From: Flavobacteriales bacterium
GTDB lineage: Bacteria > Bacteroidota > Bacteroidia > UBA10329
Assembly (NCBI GenBank): GCA_021739695.1
Contig: JAIPBM010000013.1
Location: forward strand, 1 to 64,000
Length of the DNA stretch: 64,000 nt
Reading direction: 5' to 3'
A program made the translations under genes and the position numbers. A model generated the notes under the pieces. It made no database searches and was not told the origin of the DNA. It worked only from the letters and a program-made list of their open reading frames with translations. Below are positions 25,098 through 50,958 of this stretch, in pieces (position 1 is the stretch's first letter; every line of letters begins with the position of its first letter).

Positions 25098-25628
25098 TCA
25101 GAAATGCTTCGAGCCAAAAAGACCGAGGTTAGCAAGTCTAATCGACATTGCAATAGAACTAACATCAAATTTCTTTGCAAGTTTTTTCAAAGAATCATTA
25201 TCTGCTAAATCAAATTCGTTTTTGCTTATTTCTTTTTCTACAAGGTCCTTTGGCATTAGTATGCAAGCCGCAAAAGCATTTGCTTCTTGCTCTCTCTTAT
25301 CCTCGCCTGTTGACGATTTTTCATCTCTAAACATTACTTTGTACTTGTGATCTACAAACACTTCATTTCCGTTAGCATGAAGTAGATAGTGACCAAGCTC
25401 GTGGGCCACTGTAAATCGTTGACGAACACTAGACTCTCTTGGGTTATAACCTATCGTCCCCTTACCATTTTCCAGAACCAGAACGCCTGACACTCCCTCG
25501 ACAAGGTCATAAGGGCTTACTGTGAGACCAAGCCTTGTAGCAATCTTGATAATTGGAATAGGCAACTTAACAACAGGCTCAACATCAAGAATTTTTGATG
25601 CTTTTGATTCTATTGAAGCTAGATACAT
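25098..25628 (-). CDS. ImmA/IrrE-type zinc metallopeptidase
   Basis: The 176-aa product carries the zinc motif HELGH at residues 76-80 within RFTVAHELGHYLLH, with the downstream acidic ligand region EQEANAFAACILMP (Glu113/Glu115). This is the COG2856 layout. Such proteases usually cut or relieve a partner XRE repressor; here the partner gene lies immediately upstream and overlaps by 44 bp. The pair may be a stress- or phage-responsive switch or a toxin-antitoxin-like module. Confidence 0.9.
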   Translation of the reverse strand: MYLASIESKASKILDVEPVVKLPIPIIKIATRLGLTVSPYDLVEGVSGVLVLENGKGTIGYNPRESSVRQRFTVAHELGHYLLHANGNEVFVDHKYKVMFRDEKSSTGEDKREQEANAFAACILMPKDLVEKEISKNEFDLADNDSLKKLAKKFDVSSIAMSIRLANLGLFGSKHF

Positions 25629-25986
25629 GTGATGTGGTTGTGTTTCGGGTGTCTAAGATAAACTGCTTAATATTATCCTTTATTGTTCCGTTAAAATCAG
25701 CTAGTTGATTTTCAAAAGTCGACATCTCATTATACTGAGGTTCCTCATCCAGGGTTATACTTGCAATTGGCAATAAATCAATCAACCGAGCATTGGTTGC
25801 AACTGCAACTCGATACAGCGTATCCAATGGAGGTCGTTGTTTGCCTTTTTCAATATTGACAATTGAAACACGCGACAGGCCTAGAATTTCCCCTAGCAGG
25901 GCTTGAGTTAAGCCAGCTTTTTCTCTAGCATCTCTAATCCTGTATCCCAATTGCACATAAATCTGATTCTTTTCCGTCTCTGTCAT
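25585..25986 (-). CDS. XRE-family HTH regulator
   Basis: The start at 25986 (MTETEKNQIYVQLG) is preferred over the long frame from 26064, whose extra residues are hydrophobic and lie over palindromic DNA. The 133-aa product has a five-helix XRE domain at about 9-68: RIRDAREKAGLTQALLGEILGLSRVSIVNIEKGKQ. A C-terminal tail of about 65 residues may contact the ImmA-like protease encoded next. It likely represses its own promoter through the palindromes at 26065-26104. Confidence 0.88.
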   Translation of the reverse strand: MTETEKNQIYVQLGYRIRDAREKAGLTQALLGEILGLSRVSIVNIEKGKQRPPLDTLYRVAVATNARLIDLLPIASITLDEEPQYNEMSTFENQLADFNGTIKDNIKQFILDTRNTTTSHVSSFNRIKSIKNS

Positions 25987-26064
25987 TTGCTTAAAGATAG
26001 GCAATGATAATAACTGATTTGTAACGTACAACACATGTAATGTAATTATACTCAATCTTATCAT

Positions 26065-26081
26065 GTAAGGTTAAACTTTAC
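26065..26081. promoter_or_regulatory. Operator-like palindrome upstream of XRE gene
   Basis: GTAAGGTTAAACTTTAC is an inverted repeat with 8-bp arms (one mismatch) about a central A. It lies 79 bp upstream of the XRE start and is a natural candidate for binding by that regulator. Confidence 0.45.
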
Positions 26082-26104
26082 ACATAACCTATTTTGTGTG
26101 TAAA
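26077..26104. promoter_or_regulatory. Second operator-like inverted repeat
   Basis: Perfect 8-bp arms TTTACACA (26077-26084) and TGTGTAAA (26097-26104) with a 12-bp AT-rich spacer. It partly overlaps the palindrome at 26065-26081, so two sites may be read together between the XRE pair and the ubiquitin-like operon. Confidence 0.4.
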
Positions 26105-26246
26105 TGCTTTAAGTTCGAATTAACTTTTTAAATAGAAAATGCAAATAAAGAAGCAACCGACCCAAAAATTGTCGTTACTTTTACATCCAGTGAATTGTAA
26201 TAATAAGAAACCAGCATAAACCCAATAGCCGATAGAGAAACAAAAA

Positions 26247-26278
26247 ACCCAGAAGGTAGGTGACACTACCAACTGGGT
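26247..26278 (-). terminator. Hairpin with T-run on the minus strand
   Basis: Stem ACCCAG-AA-GGTAG, loop GTGACA, then CTACC-AA-CTGGGT, a symmetric hairpin with one 2x2 internal loop. Six T residues follow on the minus strand (A-run at 26242-26247 on plus). It looks like a terminator for leftward transcription, yet no supported minus-strand gene lies to its right, so a small RNA or leaky antisense transcript is possible. Confidence 0.45.
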
Positions 26279-26412
26279 AAAAAATTTAAGGGAATTTGCT
26301 TTGGACAGCGCATGAGGCTTATCAACCTCATTATACCCCCTTTTCGGTATTACAAATGTAATGATTCTATCGTTACTCAAACGTAATGCCCAAGTCTGGG
26401 CCGGATTAACGC

Positions 26413-26431
26413 CTCTTAAGGTCTTTAAGAG
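26413..26431. promoter_or_regulatory. Hairpin just upstream of the ubiquitin-like operon
   Basis: CTCTTAA and TTAAGAG form a perfect 7-bp inverted repeat with a 5-base loop, flanked by GC..GAGGC bases that can extend it imperfectly. It ends 25 bp before the poly-Ubl start codon and could act as an operator or as a leader hairpin in the mRNA. Confidence 0.35.
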
Positions 26432-26456
26432 TTGAGGCAGTCATAAAAACTATAAA

Positions 26457-27116
26457 ATGACGTCTATTTACATTTTGAACGGTCGTAAGTACGAGACCAC
26501 AAAAACCGTACTGACAGGTAAGGAAATCCTTGAAATTGCTGATCTGACACCAGTCGAAGAGTTTGAGCTCTTACTGAAAATACAGAAGAAGGACTTCGAG
26601 TATATCAGGCCTGATGAATCGGTTGACCTTAGTCAACCAGAAATTGAGCACTTTCAGGCCAAACGCTTGAAGGCTGTCCACTACGAGGTTAATGACGTTG
26701 CGCAGGAAACCCTAGAAAGTGAACTTACCGTAAGTGAGATTTTGACGAAAGCTGGCTTCTCGGTTTCGGAGTTCTTCTTAAAGGAACTACGTGGTGGAAA
26801 GGAGATTAGCTATGAGAATGATCCTGATGTGAAAATCCGTATTCGGAACGGGATGAAGTTTCTCGCCTGTAAGGAGGATGGTTCAATGATCATTCTTGTG
26901 AACTCCAGACCAAAGGAGTGGAGCAAACCTAAAATCACTTTCGATGAGGTTGTGATACTTGCTTTTGGTACAATCTCTACCAATCCGAGGGATATCTACA
27001 CGGTTACGTACCGAAAAGGACCGAGAGAAAATCCTCAAGGCGTGATGGTGAAGGGTGATATTGTTTGTGTAACCGATAAAATGGAATTCCATGTCGCTCA
27101 TACAAACAAGTCCTGA
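26457..27116 (+). CDS. Multi-ubiquitin-domain protein (three tandem Ubls)
   Basis: The 219-aa product reads as three beta-grasp units, about residues 1-72, 73-144 and 145-219. Unit 1 has the classic multi-ubiquitin opening (YILNGRKYETTKTVLTGKEILEIADL); unit 2 has YEVNDVAQETLESELTVSEILTKAGF; unit 3 has ILVNSRPKEWSKPKITFDEVVILAFG. Each unit ends in a strand before a short linker, and the protein ends EFHVAHTNKS rather than in Gly-Gly. This fits the Multi_ubiq family of bacterial ubiquitin-like (Bub/related) operons. It overlaps the E1 gene by 26 bp, so stoichiometric co-translation is likely. Targets unknown. Confidence 0.88.
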   Translation: MTSIYILNGRKYETTKTVLTGKEILEIADLTPVEEFELLLKIQKKDFEYIRPDESVDLSQPEIEHFQAKRLKAVHYEVNDVAQETLESELTVSEILTKAGFSVSEFFLKELRGGKEISYENDPDVKIRIRNGMKFLACKEDGSMIILVNSRPKEWSKPKITFDEVVILAFGTISTNPRDIYTVTYRKGPRENPQGVMVKGDIVCVTDKMEFHVAHTNKS

Positions 27117-28269
27117 TCTCAAAACCCTTCGGGATGAAGGGTATGAAGTAGAGGTGCGTGGAGCGCATCTTCTGATCCATAGTGTTCCATACCTGAACTC
27201 CGCAAGGAGTATCGGGTATGGAACCTTGGTCTCACCGCTAACCGTGTCTGGGAACCGCGCTGCGCAACCAAATAATCACGTAGTTTTCTTTATCGGTGAT
27301 CAGCCTTGCAATAAGGATGGTAGCGAGATAGAAGCACTTAAACATGGGATGAATGCCCAAGTGCTTGCAGAGGGATTGACTGTAAATCGCTCATTCTCCA
27401 ACAAGCCGCAAGGTGGATTCGCTGACTTTCATGCAAAGATGACGTCTTATATCAATGTCATTTCTGCCCCTGTTCGGTCAATGAATCCAGAGATAGATGC
27501 TCGGACATTTCGTGTAATTGAAACAGAAGAATCAAACTCTGTATTTAATTATCCCGACACTAATTCAAGCCGCGCTAACATTAGCGCGATTTCACAACGG
27601 CTGTCTGATTTAAGAATAGGTATTGTTGGGCTTGGAGGAACTGGCAGCTACGTTTTGGATTTCGTTGCGAAGTGTCCAGTTAAGGAAATTCACCTATTTG
27701 ACGGAGATAAATTCCTTGCGCACAATGCTTTTAGAGCACCGGGCGCACCTGACTTGGAAACTTTGAATTTGACTCTACCCAAGACAGAGTATCTGAAACA
27801 GGTTTATTCACGGATGCACAAGGGCATAGTTGATTTCCCCGATTACATTGATGAAGGAAATCTTCATGTTTTTGACGGATTGGATTTTGTGTTCATCTGC
27901 ATGGATAAAGGGGGTGTTAAGAAGTATATCGTTGATAGACTTCAAAGTTTAGGAAAACCGTTCATTGATGTTGGCATCGGTGTTAATGTGCCACAAGATG
28001 GTGCGTTGACCGGAATGATCCGTACAACGACTAGCACGGTTGAGCATCAAGACCACGTGGCAGCAAGAGTTTCTATGTCGGATAACGATGAAGACAAAGC
28101 ATATTCCACCAACATCCAGATTGCAGAGTTGAATGCACTTAACGCAAGCTTTGCCGTGATTCGATGGAAGAAGCTATATGGCTTCTATGAGGACGCTGAA
28201 CATGAGATGAATTCAGTGTATTTGATTGGTGCAAATTCAGTTATCTGCGATGCAACAGTTGAAGCATAA
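27091..28269 (+). CDS. E1-like adenylyltransferase: DUF6791 plus ThiF domain
   Basis: The 392-aa product has an N-terminal domain (about 1-165) of the DUF6791 type (SPDLKTLRDEGYEVEVRGAHLLIH, GTLVSPLTVSGN, SFSNKPQGGFADFHAKM, PDTNSSRANI). A ThiF/E1 Rossmann domain follows: GLGGTG at 180-185, Asp204 in FDGDKF, Asn212 and Arg215 in HNAFRAPGAP. It would adenylate the C-terminus of the Ubl encoded just upstream. I cannot point to a catalytic Cys or Ser with confidence. No separate E2 gene is present, so the N-terminal domain could carry a conjugating role; that is inference. Confidence 0.88.
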   Translation: MSLIQTSPDLKTLRDEGYEVEVRGAHLLIHSVPYLNSARSIGYGTLVSPLTVSGNRAAQPNNHVVFFIGDQPCNKDGSEIEALKHGMNAQVLAEGLTVNRSFSNKPQGGFADFHAKMTSYINVISAPVRSMNPEIDARTFRVIETEESNSVFNYPDTNSSRANISAISQRLSDLRIGIVGLGGTGSYVLDFVAKCPVKEIHLFDGDKFLAHNAFRAPGAPDLETLNLTLPKTEYLKQVYSRMHKGIVDFPDYIDEGNLHVFDGLDFVFICMDKGGVKKYIVDRLQSLGKPFIDVGIGVNVPQDGALTGMIRTTTSTVEHQDHVAARVSMSDNDEDKAYSTNIQIAELNALNASFAVIRWKKLYGFYEDAEHEMNSVYLIGANSVICDATVEA

Positions 28270-28675
28270 GTTCTGTGAGTCCATTCCTGAGAACTTGACT
28301 CAGGGAGTAGTCTACGTATCCGTTACTTACGGAACCGCCATCCACCTCTGTTGTTGTGGATGTGGTAGCGAAGTGGTGACACCGATTACACCGACTGACT
28401 GGAAGCTTTCATTCGATGGTGAGACTATTAGCCTAAGTCCTTCAATAGGCAATTGGAGTTTGCCTTGTCAATCGCATTATTGGATAAAGGATAATCAAGT
28501 TGAGTGGTCCGGCCAATGGTCAAGAAAGCGGGTTGATGCAAGCAATAGGATAGATCGTGTCGCGAAGGAGGAATACTATCGAAAGGATGTTCCAAAAGAA
28601 GAGCCAATGGAGACAGAAGAAGAAATTCCGGAAGAGACAACTCTTCCTTTCTGGAAGCGATGGTTCAATTGGTGA
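28250..28675 (+). CDS. DUF6527 (BubE-like) protein, probable Ubl protease
   Basis: The ATG at 28250 is preferred over a TTG at 28226; it overlaps the E1 gene by 20 bp and gives 141 aa. The first half has a dense metal-type cluster HLCCCGCG (Cys34, 35, 36, 38). The second has SLSPSIGNWSLPCQSHYWI with Cys73, Ser75 and His76, the family's most conserved block, then an acidic tail. DUF6527 proteins accompany Multi_ubiq and E1 genes; from memory, family members in Bub operons act as Ubl-processing serine-type proteases. That role is inferred here, not shown. Confidence 0.82.
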   Translation: MQQLKHKFCESIPENLTQGVVYVSVTYGTAIHLCCCGCGSEVVTPITPTDWKLSFDGETISLSPSIGNWSLPCQSHYWIKDNQVEWSGQWSRKRVDASNRIDRVAKEEYYRKDVPKEEPMETEEEIPEETTLPFWKRWFNW

Positions 28676-28699: not shown

Positions 28700-28725
28700 G
28701 AGGGGATTGAGAATTCAATCCCCTC
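28700..28725 (+). terminator. Terminator-like hairpin after the ubiquitin-like operon
   Basis: Perfect 11-bp arms GAGGGGATTGA (28700-28710) and TCAATCCCCTC (28715-28725) around GAAT. The following bases (ATTAAACAAAG) lack a T-run, so termination may be partial and read into the downstream nuclease-like gene. Confidence 0.6.
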
Positions 28726-28775: not shown

Positions 28776-29105
28776 ATGCCAGTAAAAAAAGACAATTACA
28801 GTAAAGGAGTCGCAGCCGAAAGGAGAGTCGCGGCACATTTAAAAAAGACCACTTCCGCCAAGGTCAAACAAAATCCAGGAAGTAGAGGAGCAGAAGACCT
28901 AAAGGTTCAATTTGCTAACGGCAGGAAGCATTTTGTGCAAGTGAAGTCTTCTTCCAAGGGCAAGCCGAAGATGCCGACTTCAAAGGAGTTGGGCCGTTTG
29001 AAAAGCAAAAGCACAAAGAACCGTGCAACAGCAGTCATTGCGTTGGTTGACTCAAACCGGGTTATCACTCGAATAAATGCACACACTGGAAAAAAAATGA
29101 GATGA
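28776..29105 (+). CDS. Small PD-(D/E)XK-like protein, possible nuclease
   Basis: The 109-aa basic product resembles archaeal Hjc-like and related restriction-endonuclease-fold proteins: an early Glu (Glu15 in AAERRVAAHL), NPGSRGAEDLKVQF with acidic Glu40/Asp41, and FVQVKSSSKGKP with Lys57. The usual E/D of the (D/E)XK step is Gln55 (QVK), so activity may be lost or altered. It starts 100 bp after the DUF6527 gene, past a hairpin, and shares an ATGA overlap with the next ORF. Whether it belongs to the ubiquitin-like system is open. Confidence 0.6.
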   Translation: MPVKKDNYSKGVAAERRVAAHLKKTTSAKVKQNPGSRGAEDLKVQFANGRKHFVQVKSSSKGKPKMPTSKELGRLKSKSTKNRATAVIALVDSNRVITRINAHTGKKMR

Positions 29106-29374
29106 TTATGAAATTTCAAGTAAACGAAGGTCACGCAGGTGTTCTCACCATGCGAGACGACACGACAAAGAACTACGGAGTTATTCGTGTGACTAAAGAC
29201 GGACGTCATTTGGTTCATTATACTGGAAAGGGCCTTCGGGAAATCTATCCGCACAGTCCGAATGAGGAAGAGCGTAAAAAGGCGGAGGAGCTGAAAGCAA
29301 TGGATGAGAAAGACCTTATCCATTCTGGACATATAGAATGGACTTTAGTTGTAGACATTTTGGATGCCAGTTAG
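29102..29374 (+). CDS. Small protein of unknown function
   Basis: A 90-aa frame coupled to the nuclease-like gene by ATGA at 29102; an ATG at 29108 is a second possible start. The sequence is soluble, with a beta-rich first half (YGVIRVTKDGRHLVHYTGKG) and a charged helix (NEEERKKAEELKAMDEKDL). No family recognised. It is convergent with the T9SS gene whose stop lies 32 bp further on. Confidence 0.6.
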   Translation: MIMKFQVNEGHAGVLTMRDDTTKNYGVIRVTKDGRHLVHYTGKGLREIYPHSPNEEERKKAEELKAMDEKDLIHSGHIEWTLVVDILDAS

Positions 29375-31245: not shown

Positions 31246-32514
31246 TTACCTTACAAACACTGGAAATTTCACGTTGACATTTGTGATTGAACCGCTTCTT
31301 AGAATACGACACCTCATGTAATGATGGCCTAGGTACTTGGCATTTGCTTCACATTGAGTTTGATTATCCGAATCCTTCATGACCTCAATAGGTTTATTGT
31401 CATCCTTAGCTTCTTTCCCAGAGTTATTGATTTCCCACTTGATTGATTCTCCATGGGCCGTTTTCAGGGTGTATTCATGACCGTTTTCCAGCAGCGTGAA
31501 CCGGACTTTATAGTCTTTCGGAATTGAGTATAGATTCTGATGGTATTCAACAAACGGGGCATTTTCATTCTCAGCGATTTCGCAACGTAGCTTGTAAACA
31601 GGTGGTTCCATGACAAGCCTTCCGTTACTGTCGTTTTTGAAGAAATCGAACGACTTCAGATAATCTGCCCACTTAAATTCATACATTCTGTAGGAATTGT
31701 TGAAAATATAAAGTTCAGAACTATCGAAGCTGACCAGTGCATCGGTTAGGTCTAATTCTTGAATTACATTCTGACCAAGCATGATTCCGTTGTGACTTGC
31801 TTTTGCTTGTAGCTTGGCAGCTAGGTCTGTATGAAGTCCTGTTGTTGTAAGCTCATTGCAATAAGCCAAGCCGTAGTAAGACCATAAGGTCATTTCTGCA
31901 GGGCCATAATCAATCCCAACCCTAATTCCAGGAGCATTTACACCATCACGTTCAAAGAATTCCGCCACCTTAAATCGCATCATGTACGTGAGAAGGGAAG
32001 ACGCATTCAAGGCGTTAATCACCGCATCTCTTGAGTCCATTTCACTTCTTACGAAATAGACGAACACGCCATCACCTTGCAATCGTTGAATATGACCGCC
32101 AAAAAACGAGCAGACCTCAATTGCCAGAGTAAGTATGGTATCTTTAATAAGGCGCACCCTAAGTAGGTCATATTTGTTGGAAAGAAAAGTTGATCCTTTA
32201 ATGTCGATGAACATCGACACAGCATAATGGTTGAGGTAATCATTATGACCCAAGTGCGCAAAGTCAGGATGTGGTCCAATATGTGGTTCAGAAAACGAAA
32301 ACCTATGAGTTCCATACAATGTTTCCAATTCTTCATAATTTACCTTTGTAGAAACCTTTGTGTCCGAGGAACCAGCAATCCCAGTCATTCCTTTTTGGAT
32401 CCCCTCAGAAACAACCGACCTTGAAAGATTGATATCGTACTGTGAATAAGATTTTGGATAGTTCCCCTGAATAATATTGTTAATGCCGTCCAGTCGACTT
32501 TTAAATAGATCCAT
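31246..32514 (-). CDS. pycC: Pycsar class III nucleotide cyclase with AGS-C-like tail
   Basis: The 422-aa product has a short N-terminal region and a class III cyclase core at about 95-255. Metal-binding Asp104 lies in MFIDIKGST and Asp148 in LQGDGVFVYF; the later GIRVGIDYGPAEMTLW segment also fits the fold. Residues about 290-422 look like the AGS-C sensor domain (SIKWEINNSGKEAKD, YLGHHYMRCRI). Pycsar cyclases make cCMP or cUMP on phage infection to switch on an effector; which base this one uses cannot be read by eye. The membrane effector gene lies 1 bp upstream on the same strand. Confidence 0.88.
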   Translation of the reverse strand: MDLFKSRLDGINNIIQGNYPKSYSQYDINLSRSVVSEGIQKGMTGIAGSSDTKVSTKVNYEELETLYGTHRFSFSEPHIGPHPDFAHLGHNDYLNHYAVSMFIDIKGSTFLSNKYDLLRVRLIKDTILTLAIEVCSFFGGHIQRLQGDGVFVYFVRSEMDSRDAVINALNASSLLTYMMRFKVAEFFERDGVNAPGIRVGIDYGPAEMTLWSYYGLAYCNELTTTGLHTDLAAKLQAKASHNGIMLGQNVIQELDLTDALVSFDSSELYIFNNSYRMYEFKWADYLKSFDFFKNDSNGRLVMEPPVYKLRCEIAENENAPFVEYHQNLYSIPKDYKVRFTLLENGHEYTLKTAHGESIKWEINNSGKEAKDDNKPIEVMKDSDNQTQCEANAKYLGHHYMRCRILRSGSITNVNVKFPVFVR

Positions 32515-32515
32515 G

Positions 32516-33022
32516 CTAAAATGTTATTAGTGCAGCTATGACGGTGATGATAATTAGTGTTAAGAAAAAAGCCCACATCGCATAACCTATCCACTCGTAC
32601 TTTTTGGTCAATCCTTTAGAAAGGACATATATCTGATGTTTCAGGTCTTCCAGATAATTCACAGGCTGGTATTCCTCACAAGAAATGAGAAATTCCTTCT
32701 CTGTTTTGAACTCTGCTATTGACTTGAAGAAGATATGCGACCGATAGTCAGCCTGATGGGAGTTTCCACTCTTTAGGTAAGGAAATACAGCCATTCCAAC
32801 GAAAAAGGTAGAAGCAACTTCAAGTAGAAACATTACCACCAACAGCCCAAGTATCAGTTTTGGATAGCTGCTGGCATCAGCAAGCTGCATTAATTCGTTT
32901 TGTTGAGCAACCACGGTTCCGAATAGAAACGTATTAAATGCCACGATTACCGTCCCTTTGGTGTTTACGCCTTCCGCGTAACCGTCAATTCGCTGCAAAA
33001 TCATGCGGTAATGTTCTTCCAT
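32516..33022 (-). CDS. pycTM: Pycsar membrane effector (PycTM-type)
   Basis: The 168-aa product matches the PycTM/DUF5706 plan: an opening helix (RIDGYAEGVNTKGTVIVAFNTFLFG), a second membrane helix (LILGLLVVMFLLEVASTFFVGMAVFPYL), a soluble middle (YRSHIFFKSIAEFKTEKEFL, YLEDLKHQIYVLSKGLTKKY) and a last helix (WAFFLTLIIITVIAALITF). In known systems the cyclic nucleotide makes such proteins damage the inner membrane and abort infection. Placed 1 bp before the cyclase gene, the two form a complete Pycsar operon. Confidence 0.88.
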   Translation of the reverse strand: MEEHYRMILQRIDGYAEGVNTKGTVIVAFNTFLFGTVVAQQNELMQLADASSYPKLILGLLVVMFLLEVASTFFVGMAVFPYLKSGNSHQADYRSHIFFKSIAEFKTEKEFLISCEEYQPVNYLEDLKHQIYVLSKGLTKKYEWIGYAMWAFFLTLIIITVIAALITF

Positions 33023-49254: not shown

Positions 49255-50958
49255 ATGGACAGAATAACCAAATCTTTACTTGAAGAGTTCGTAAAGCAAA
49301 ACGGTCTTGAGAACATCGCAGAAGACCAAGCTTTTGAACATTTCACGGGTTACATAGTAACCTCCAAACATTTCACAGAGAGTTTTTCTTCGGAAGATAT
49401 TCATGTTGGAGCAGGCAACGATTGCGGAATTGATAGCATTTCCATTATTGTCAACGGTTGTTTGGTAACGGAGCCTGTGGAAATAGAAGATTTGGCCGAC
49501 ACAAATGGTTACCTAGATGTCACATTTATTTTTAATCAAGCAGAAAGGTCAAGTAGTTTCGAGACAGCCAAAGTTGGTCAGTTCAGTTTTGGAATCAATG
49601 ATTTTTTTGCCACTACTTCAGCCTTACCGCAAAATCAACATATAAAGAAGAAGGCACTAATTGTCAATGAAATTTTTAATCGGAGTAGCAGGTTCAAAAA
49701 AGGTAATCCTCAATGTTTTATTTATTATACCACCACGGGCAAATGGACCGAAGACGCAAATCTGGTAGTCAGAAAAAATGCAGTTATCAAAGATTTGCAA
49801 GACCTTTCCTTGTTCCGAAAGGTAGAATTTGAATTTATAGACGCTGAGAAAATTCAATCTTTGTTTAGGGAAACAAAGAACGCCATATCGACCGAAATCA
49901 GTTTCACTGAACGAATAACGCTTCCGGAATTGGCTGGAATTGAACAAGCATACTTAGGCTTATTAAGTTCAACTGAATATTTAAAGCTTATTCAGAATAC
50001 CAATGAAGAGGTAATAACTTCAATTTTCTATGACAATGTGAGACATTGGCAAGAATGGAACTCCGTGAATAGGGAAATAAAAGAGACTCTTGAGAATGAG
50101 TCCGCGAAGCTTTATTTCCCACTGCTGAATAATGGCGTTACACTAATTGCAAAGCGAATAATTCCTACAGGAAATAAATTTGTTATAGAGGATTATCAAA
50201 TTGTTAATGGCTGTCAAACGAGTTTTGTGCTGTACGAAAGCAGGCAACACCTTAATGAAGAAATCCTGATACCGGTTCGCCTTATAGCGACCGACAATTC
50301 TGAAATAAAAAACTCCATAATTAAAGCGACAAACAGGCAAACCGAGGTGACTGAAGAACAATTGTTTGCGCTCGCAGACTTTCCAAAAAAGTTGGAAACT
50401 TATTTTCCAACATTTGAAGGAAGTAAAAAGCTGTATTACGAAAGGCGTTCCCGACAATACAACTCAGAAGAAGAAGTCGAAAAGGTTAGAGTTGTTAACA
50501 TGACAACTCTTGTTAGGGCATTTGCTTCCCTGTTTCTAGGCTTTCCTCACCGTACAACCCGTAACTACAAAGCCCTGCTAAAGTCAATAAATACAGACAT
50601 TTTTCACAAAGACCATAAACTTGAAATGTATTATGTCTCTGCATACGCTCATTACAAGTTGGAATATTTCTTTCGAAGTGGTGTAATTAATTCTGACTTG
50701 AAGCCTGCGCGTTATCATTTGCTATATTTATTCAGGTTGCTCACCAACAGTACGACACCGCCTAGGCCAAATTCGAATGAAATGACACGTTACTGTAGTT
50801 CTTTGACTGATGTGCTGTGGGACGATGCGGCTGTTCGAGCCAAATTTCTTGAAGCGGCAACTCTCATATACCGGGTTGCAAACGGGAATTTGCATAACGA
50901 CAACATACGGACAGAACCGTTTACGAAGTTAGTAGAGGAAGAAGCCGCAAAATTATAG
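49255..50958 (+). CDS. AIPR-family (abortive infection phage resistance) protein
   Basis: The 567-aa product fits the AIPR family: an N-terminal alpha/beta part with VGAGNDCGIDSISIIVNG (resembling a nuclease-like fold), then the core LYFPLLNNGVTLIAKR, IEDYQIVNGCQTSFVLYE, IIKATNRQTEVTEEQLFAL. Family members are linked to abortive infection in lactococci and to defence islands. No partner toxin or methylase gene is adjacent. The start ATG at 49255 is the first in frame. Confidence 0.85.
   Translation: MDRITKSLLEEFVKQNGLENIAEDQAFEHFTGYIVTSKHFTESFSSEDIHVGAGNDCGIDSISIIVNGCLVTEPVEIEDLADTNGYLDVTFIFNQAERSSSFETAKVGQFSFGINDFFATTSALPQNQHIKKKALIVNEIFNRSSRFKKGNPQCFIYYTTTGKWTEDANLVVRKNAVIKDLQDLSLFRKVEFEFIDAEKIQSLFRETKNAISTEISFTERITLPELAGIEQAYLGLLSSTEYLKLIQNTNEEVITSIFYDNVRHWQEWNSVNREIKETLENESAKLYFPLLNNGVTLIAKRIIPTGNKFVIEDYQIVNGCQTSFVLYESRQHLNEEILIPVRLIATDNSEIKNSIIKATNRQTEVTEEQLFALADFPKKLETYFPTFEGSKKLYYERRSRQYNSEEEVEKVRVVNMTTLVRAFASLFLGFPHRTTRNYKALLKSINTDIFHKDHKLEMYYVSAYAHYKLEYFFRSGVINSDLKPARYHLLYLFRLLTNSTTPPRPNSNEMTRYCSSLTDVLWDDAAVRAKFLEAATLIYRVANGNLHNDNIRTEPFTKLVEEEAAKL

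Follow-up and report, generated by a model that had tools for sequence, protein, structure and literature searches.

Bacterial ubiquitin-like (Bub) operons are the closest described relatives of the locus analysed here. Their canonical members, which we located using a partial Citrobacter BubCD sequence as query and which were found on plasmids, encode a multi-domain ubiquitin-like protein (Ubl) fused to or followed by a cysteine-less Prok-E2_E protein, then a JAB-ThiF protein and a DUF6527 protein (order A-B-CD-E), and several of them carry HTH and ImmA/IrrE genes upstream. Papers on Bub are said to report oxyester chemistry. Among 544 Bub operons, 219 have CapW or CapH and CapP as neighbours, both of which respond to DNA damage, and protection against phage has not been shown for Bub operons to date (PMC13373217). 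An earlier survey describes a subset of operon type 6e with one to three Ubl repeats, an E1 whose N-terminus is an alternative, uncharacterised domain instead of JAB, and a metal-type protein of the pattern C-x3-C...H/C, and suggests a JAB-analogous role for that N-terminal domain (Iyer, Burroughs & Aravind 2006, PMC1779556).

The window, by which we mean the whole stretch of 64,000 nucleotides analysed here, contains a three-gene operon that is a real member of a widespread and under-studied Bub subtype, noted already in 2006 (Table 1). The first-pass annotation of this DNA had described genes for a triple beta-grasp protein, a DUF6791-ThiF E1 and a DUF6527 protein, with overlaps of 26 and 20 bp. 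Its coordinates are right: models for Multi_ubiq, DUF6791, ThiF and DUF6527 match the three genes, the first overlap occupies 27091-27116, and the second is 20 bp given a DUF6527 start at the ATG at 28250.

Table 1. Features of the operon and its upstream region, in window coordinates.
Feature	Coordinates	Strand	Basis and remarks
capP-like ImmA/IrrE (M78) metallopeptidase regulator, HELGH motif	25098..25628	-	Peptidase_M78 7.5e-23; PADLOC capP 3.9e-39
capH-like HTH repressor	25585..25986	-	PADLOC capH 8.3e-10; HTH_3 4e-12; ATG 25986
Divergent regulatory region, capH to Ubl gene	25987..26456	.	Sequence only; putative function
Multi_ubiq protein (BubA-like Ubl), 219 aa	26457..27116	+	PF14452 1.3e-27; 9cd2 match; C-terminus ...HTNKS
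First beta-grasp (Multi_ubiq) unit of Ubl	26472..26657	+	50.5 bits
Third beta-grasp unit of Ubl	26892..27104	+	49 bits; bears C-terminal Ser
E1-like enzyme (DUF6791 + ThiF), 392 aa	27091..28269	+	PF20590 1.5e-56; PF00899 1.1e-14; NCBIfam NF004805 2.1e-166
DUF6791 domain, proposed E2-like	27112..27561	+	H63 = codon 27277-27279; C73 = 27307-27309
ThiF/E1 adenylation core	27592..28029	+	GxGGTG, DxD, R215, K231, D272
DUF6527 protein (BubE position)	28250..28675	+	PF20137 6.2e-26

Three components are common to this operon and Bub (Citrobacter BubAB-CD-E, L120; PDB 9ea4, 9ea5, 9ea8, 9eae and 9eav): a multi-beta-grasp Ubl, a ThiF E1 related to BubD, and a DUF6527 protein, whose last-gene position is that of canonical Bub operons and supports the Bub-type assignment made from the window alone. 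The best PDB match of the E1 half was Citrobacter BubCD both by profile (2.4e-9) and by fold (1.2e-12), hhalign of the ThiF half against BubCD gave an E-value of 2.7e-19, and profile comparison of DUF6527 with canonical BubE gave 1.7e-15. CapH/CapP or other controllers lie upstream of Bub operons, as here. In contrast, the JAB domain (BubC) and the separate or fused Prok-E2_E of Bub are absent from the operon, and DUF6791 occupies the JAB position on the E1. Because Ubl, E1 and DUF6527 are common to canonical Bub and JAB is replaced by DUF6791, we file the operon as a JAB-less Bub subtype and not as canonical Bub. Elsewhere in the genome, only a stand-alone JAB protein is encoded, on another contig (L121, G000:C6:109995-110348; PF14464, 3.1e-14).

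The operon appears to be the same subtype as the non-JAB subset of type 6e; its DUF6527 protein carries C34-x3-C38...C73-x2-H76, the order of the last two residues as printed in the 2006 paper being H-x2-C (PMC1779556). The section of that paper on type 6e mentions neither a C-terminal serine, nor a CapH/CapP link, nor a similarity to E2_E. By name, DUF6791 was absent from the papers of the literature library that we searched. New here are the weak likeness of DUF6791 to Prok-E2_E, the lack of a universal cysteine, the serine-ended Ubl, and a Ubl domain number that varies while DUF6527 is nearly constant. Among other known systems, the E2-E1 fusions of type II CBASS (Cap2) and 6A-MBL likewise join a transfer-type domain to the N-terminus of a ThiF E1 on one chain, but their E2s belong to Prok-E2_A/B-type families, to which DUF6791 has no profile similarity, and the operon here, unlike theirs, encodes a dedicated Ubl. 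BIL (bacterial ISG15-like) operons also pair a dedicated multi-domain Ubl with an E1, whereas here there is no E2 gene and DUF6527 is found instead; BilA matches weakly (8.4e-5).

Of the genomes sampled, 14 of 396 from the host phylum and 8 of 399 from another phylum hold DUF6791, and a scan of a genome collection returned at least 585 stretches encoding it, 80 of which were kept. Ubl, E1 and DUF6527 genes stood in the same order in all 15 related host-phylum loci fetched, and the same three genes occurred in most of the 80 kept loci, drawn from many phyla (Bacteroidota, Nitrospira, Verrucomicrobia, Acidobacteria, Proteobacteria, Cyanobacteria, Planctomycetes, Paenibacillus, Anaerolineae and others, with one record labelled archaeal). 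The operon is not a chance arrangement, since both the order of its genes and the overlap of 26 bp are kept across phyla. In L069, L070 and L107 the E1 and DUF6527 genes do not overlap, the DUF6527 gene following downstream at a distance of about 2 kb.

The description of the Ubl as triple is based on its length and on a match in three stretches to a solved 222-aa homologue, the ZDHYS365 multi-ubiquitin domain protein (PDB 9cd2; E 2.9e-17), which comes from another organism and has the same ...TDKS end. The Pfam Multi_ubiq model matches two of the three units, the middle one having no Pfam match. Judged by length, the 92 Ubls paired with an E1 contain about one (39), two (20) or three (33) domains, and the third and last unit is the one always present. 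All 92 end in serine, as [KRQ]S, and none in glycine; serine is also the last residue of the Ubls from more divergent loci on plasmids. Canonical BubA, in contrast, mostly either stops at ...TEG or runs on into a fused BubB past ...TEG or ...NNG, whereas here the serine is the end and no tail follows. We considered whether the terminal serine simply results from the overlap of the two genes and rejected this explanation: its codon is always TCN while the E1 codon in the overlapping frame, which always begins with C, encodes H, R, L or P, so that the serine itself appears to be selected.

The first-pass annotation saw no E2 gene nearby, which is true of the whole host genome as well for Prok-E2_A, _B and _E, the three families searched, and the same searches do give matches in relatives. 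Among 50 operon-bearing genomes, none had a Prok-E2_E match above the cut-off and one had a match below it. The annotation had further proposed that the N-terminal domain of the E1 performs the transfer step, and this proposal is plausible. Comparison of DUF6791 with Prok-E2_E by hhalign scored 24.04, above the maxima of 200 target shuffles (19.9) and 200 query shuffles (23.96); with larger alignments, which cut the aligned stretch to 30 columns, it scored 21.82 against shuffle maxima of 21.12 (400) and 19.33 (300). For the accepted pair E2_B-E2_E the same method gave 23.4 and 21.0. Profiles of Prok-E2_A and Prok-E2_B gave no signal with DUF6791, and a PDB sequence search with the domain returned nothing significant. 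An AlphaFold2 model (mean pLDDT 89) predicts a helix, four strands, a loop bearing C73 and a later helix. The comparison of this domain with E2 folds that the annotation had called for yielded scattered E2 matches, all sub-threshold: Foldseek against the PDB found no significant fold match (best E 0.18), and its sub-threshold list includes the E2s Atg10, UBE2H, Cdc34 and one from Plasmodium, one E2 having the top match probability of the list (0.25) and all E2 TM-scores lying below 0.45. In two loci, DUF6791 and ThiF are separate, overlapping genes split at the domain linker (L028:7742-8942, L032:7153-8338), and the DUF6791 gene there stands between the Ubl and ThiF genes, in the slot of BubB in canonical operons. 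We lean towards the view that DUF6791 is E2-like.

What an E2-like DUF6791 would do chemically is constrained by the residues kept in 105 E1s, of which H63, G69, P72, S103, Y120, G182, G183, R215, K231, Y239, D272, D293 and R311 are invariant. The most conserved cysteine, C73, is present in 98 of the 105 and is H, F or R in the other seven (L062, L100, L116, L118, L158, L160 and L161); C270 is present in 79, and the ThiF domain has no invariant cysteine. A cysteine thioester is thus not universal in the family. H63-x9-C73 was also considered as the HPN...C motif of E2s, whose spacing it fits, and was dropped, H63 lying at the start of predicted strand beta-4 and not behind it, and C73 not being universal.

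A cysteine-dependent E2, forming a Ubl~C73 thioester as Cap2 and eukaryotic E2s do, nevertheless has in its favour the near-conservation of C73 and its place in the model, where it lies in the loop that follows predicted beta-4, the strand that begins with H63. We regard it as improbable, for the seven E1s that replace C73 are full-length and include a plasmid-borne alphaproteobacterial group whose E1 is otherwise intact, and C270 in the ThiF domain is not invariant either; such an E2 is therefore not established. It is about equally doubtful that DUF6791 takes over the function of JAB, as a domain of peptidase-like or regulatory kind, with no E2 at all and an E1 that loads targets directly with Y338 as acceptor. 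The domain does sit where canonical BubCD has its fused JAB, a JAB-analogous role was suggested in the 2006 paper (PMC1779556), and Y338 is kept in 104 of 105 E1s; Y370, the residue mutated in PDB 9eav according to the entry title, is invariant in nine canonical BubCD proteins. The comparison with JAB profiles, however, scored 12.0, equal to the null median, the Ubl has no C-terminal extension to remove, and DUF6791 weakly resembles Prok-E2_E; the equivalence of Y338 and Y370 is itself uncertain because the alignment is ambiguous.

Two further explanations are very unlikely. Small-molecule or sulphur chemistry of the ThiS/MoaD/MccB kind, without conjugation, would agree with the presence of ThiF, MoeB and MccB among the structural matches, but the Ubl ends in serine where sulphur carriers end in Gly-Gly, the operon lacks genes for a rhodanese, a cysteine desulphurase or biosynthesis, and its parts in common with Bub and its CapH/CapP control also speak against it. 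The other, raised in the first-pass annotation, is that DUF6527 separates the three Ubl units so that each is conjugated singly. The DUF6527 protein has a cluster of C34, C36, C38, C73 and H76 plus S65 (numbering from 28250); S65 and H76 are kept in 107 of 107 homologues, canonical BubE included, which is compatible with a hydrolase, whereas canonical BubE members lack some of the cysteines. Judged from these residues, the protein may be a hydrolase that binds a metal in a structural role; a PDB sequence search with it returned nothing significant. Cutting into monomers is disfavoured, however, since DUF6527 is nearly always there regardless of the number of Ubl domains (one, two or about three), and since the motif T[DN][KRQ]S, terminal in 80 of 92 Ubls, is internal in none of the 53 multi-domain ones.

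The reading that we favour, with moderate confidence, is a compact JAB-less Bub subtype with DUF6791 as a built-in E2-like domain, conjugation of the Ubl as one block, and control by CapH/CapP. CapH would keep the operon off until CapP, activated by single-stranded DNA, switches it on. The Ubl, translated already mature, would be adenylated by the ThiF domain at the carboxylate of its C-terminal serine and conjugated through its last domain to target amines (or hydroxyls) by way of DUF6791, with an intermediate that may be hydroxyl- or tyrosine-linked or, where the residue is present, C73-linked. DUF6527 (BubE) probably serves to remove conjugated Ubl; a role as adaptor is less likely. Should DUF6791 be the transfer domain, two proteins plus DUF6527 would make up a complete route of Ubl conjugation, among the simplest systems for studying ubiquitin-type transfer without a universal catalytic cysteine or a glycine-ended tag. 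We tentatively raise the stronger possibility, which we hold to be less likely, that the E1 is also the E2, with no strictly required cysteine and a serine-ended tag that needs no maturation, as a minimal and widespread oxyester-type form of ubiquitination.

An HTH gene and an M78 peptidase gene adjoin the operon, as in CapH/CapP-controlled immune operons. The longest ORF of the capH-like gene extends to 26064, the ATG at 25986 being preferred as its start, and two inverted repeats in the intergenic region before the Ubl gene (26077-26104 and 26247-26278) are candidate operators. A CapP-like gene lies no more than 4.5 kb upstream in 54 of 79 DUF6791 loci and downstream in 4 of 78. As this divergent pair stands upstream here as at canonical Bub loci, induction of the operon by DNA damage is likely by analogy, and an antiphage role is plausible to judge from its neighbours. 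No match was found between the operon and phage records. GC content drops from about 0.49 to 0.39-0.44 across the operon, the pattern to be expected if a defence-type cassette had been acquired.

Just past the DUF6527 stop, a hairpin with an 11-bp stem (28700-28725, found for the minus strand) marks a possible transcription end, and two small ORFs of 109 and 90 aa follow at 28776-29374 (+), the first with a weak PDDEXK/Hjc-like match (E 0.02-0.03). A Pycsar system consisting of a PycC cyclase (PADLOC 1.5e-141) and a PycTM effector lies 2.6 kb from the Ubl operon at 31246-33022 (-), and an AbiU-like abortive-infection protein is encoded at 49255-50958 (+; PADLOC 9.4e-131).
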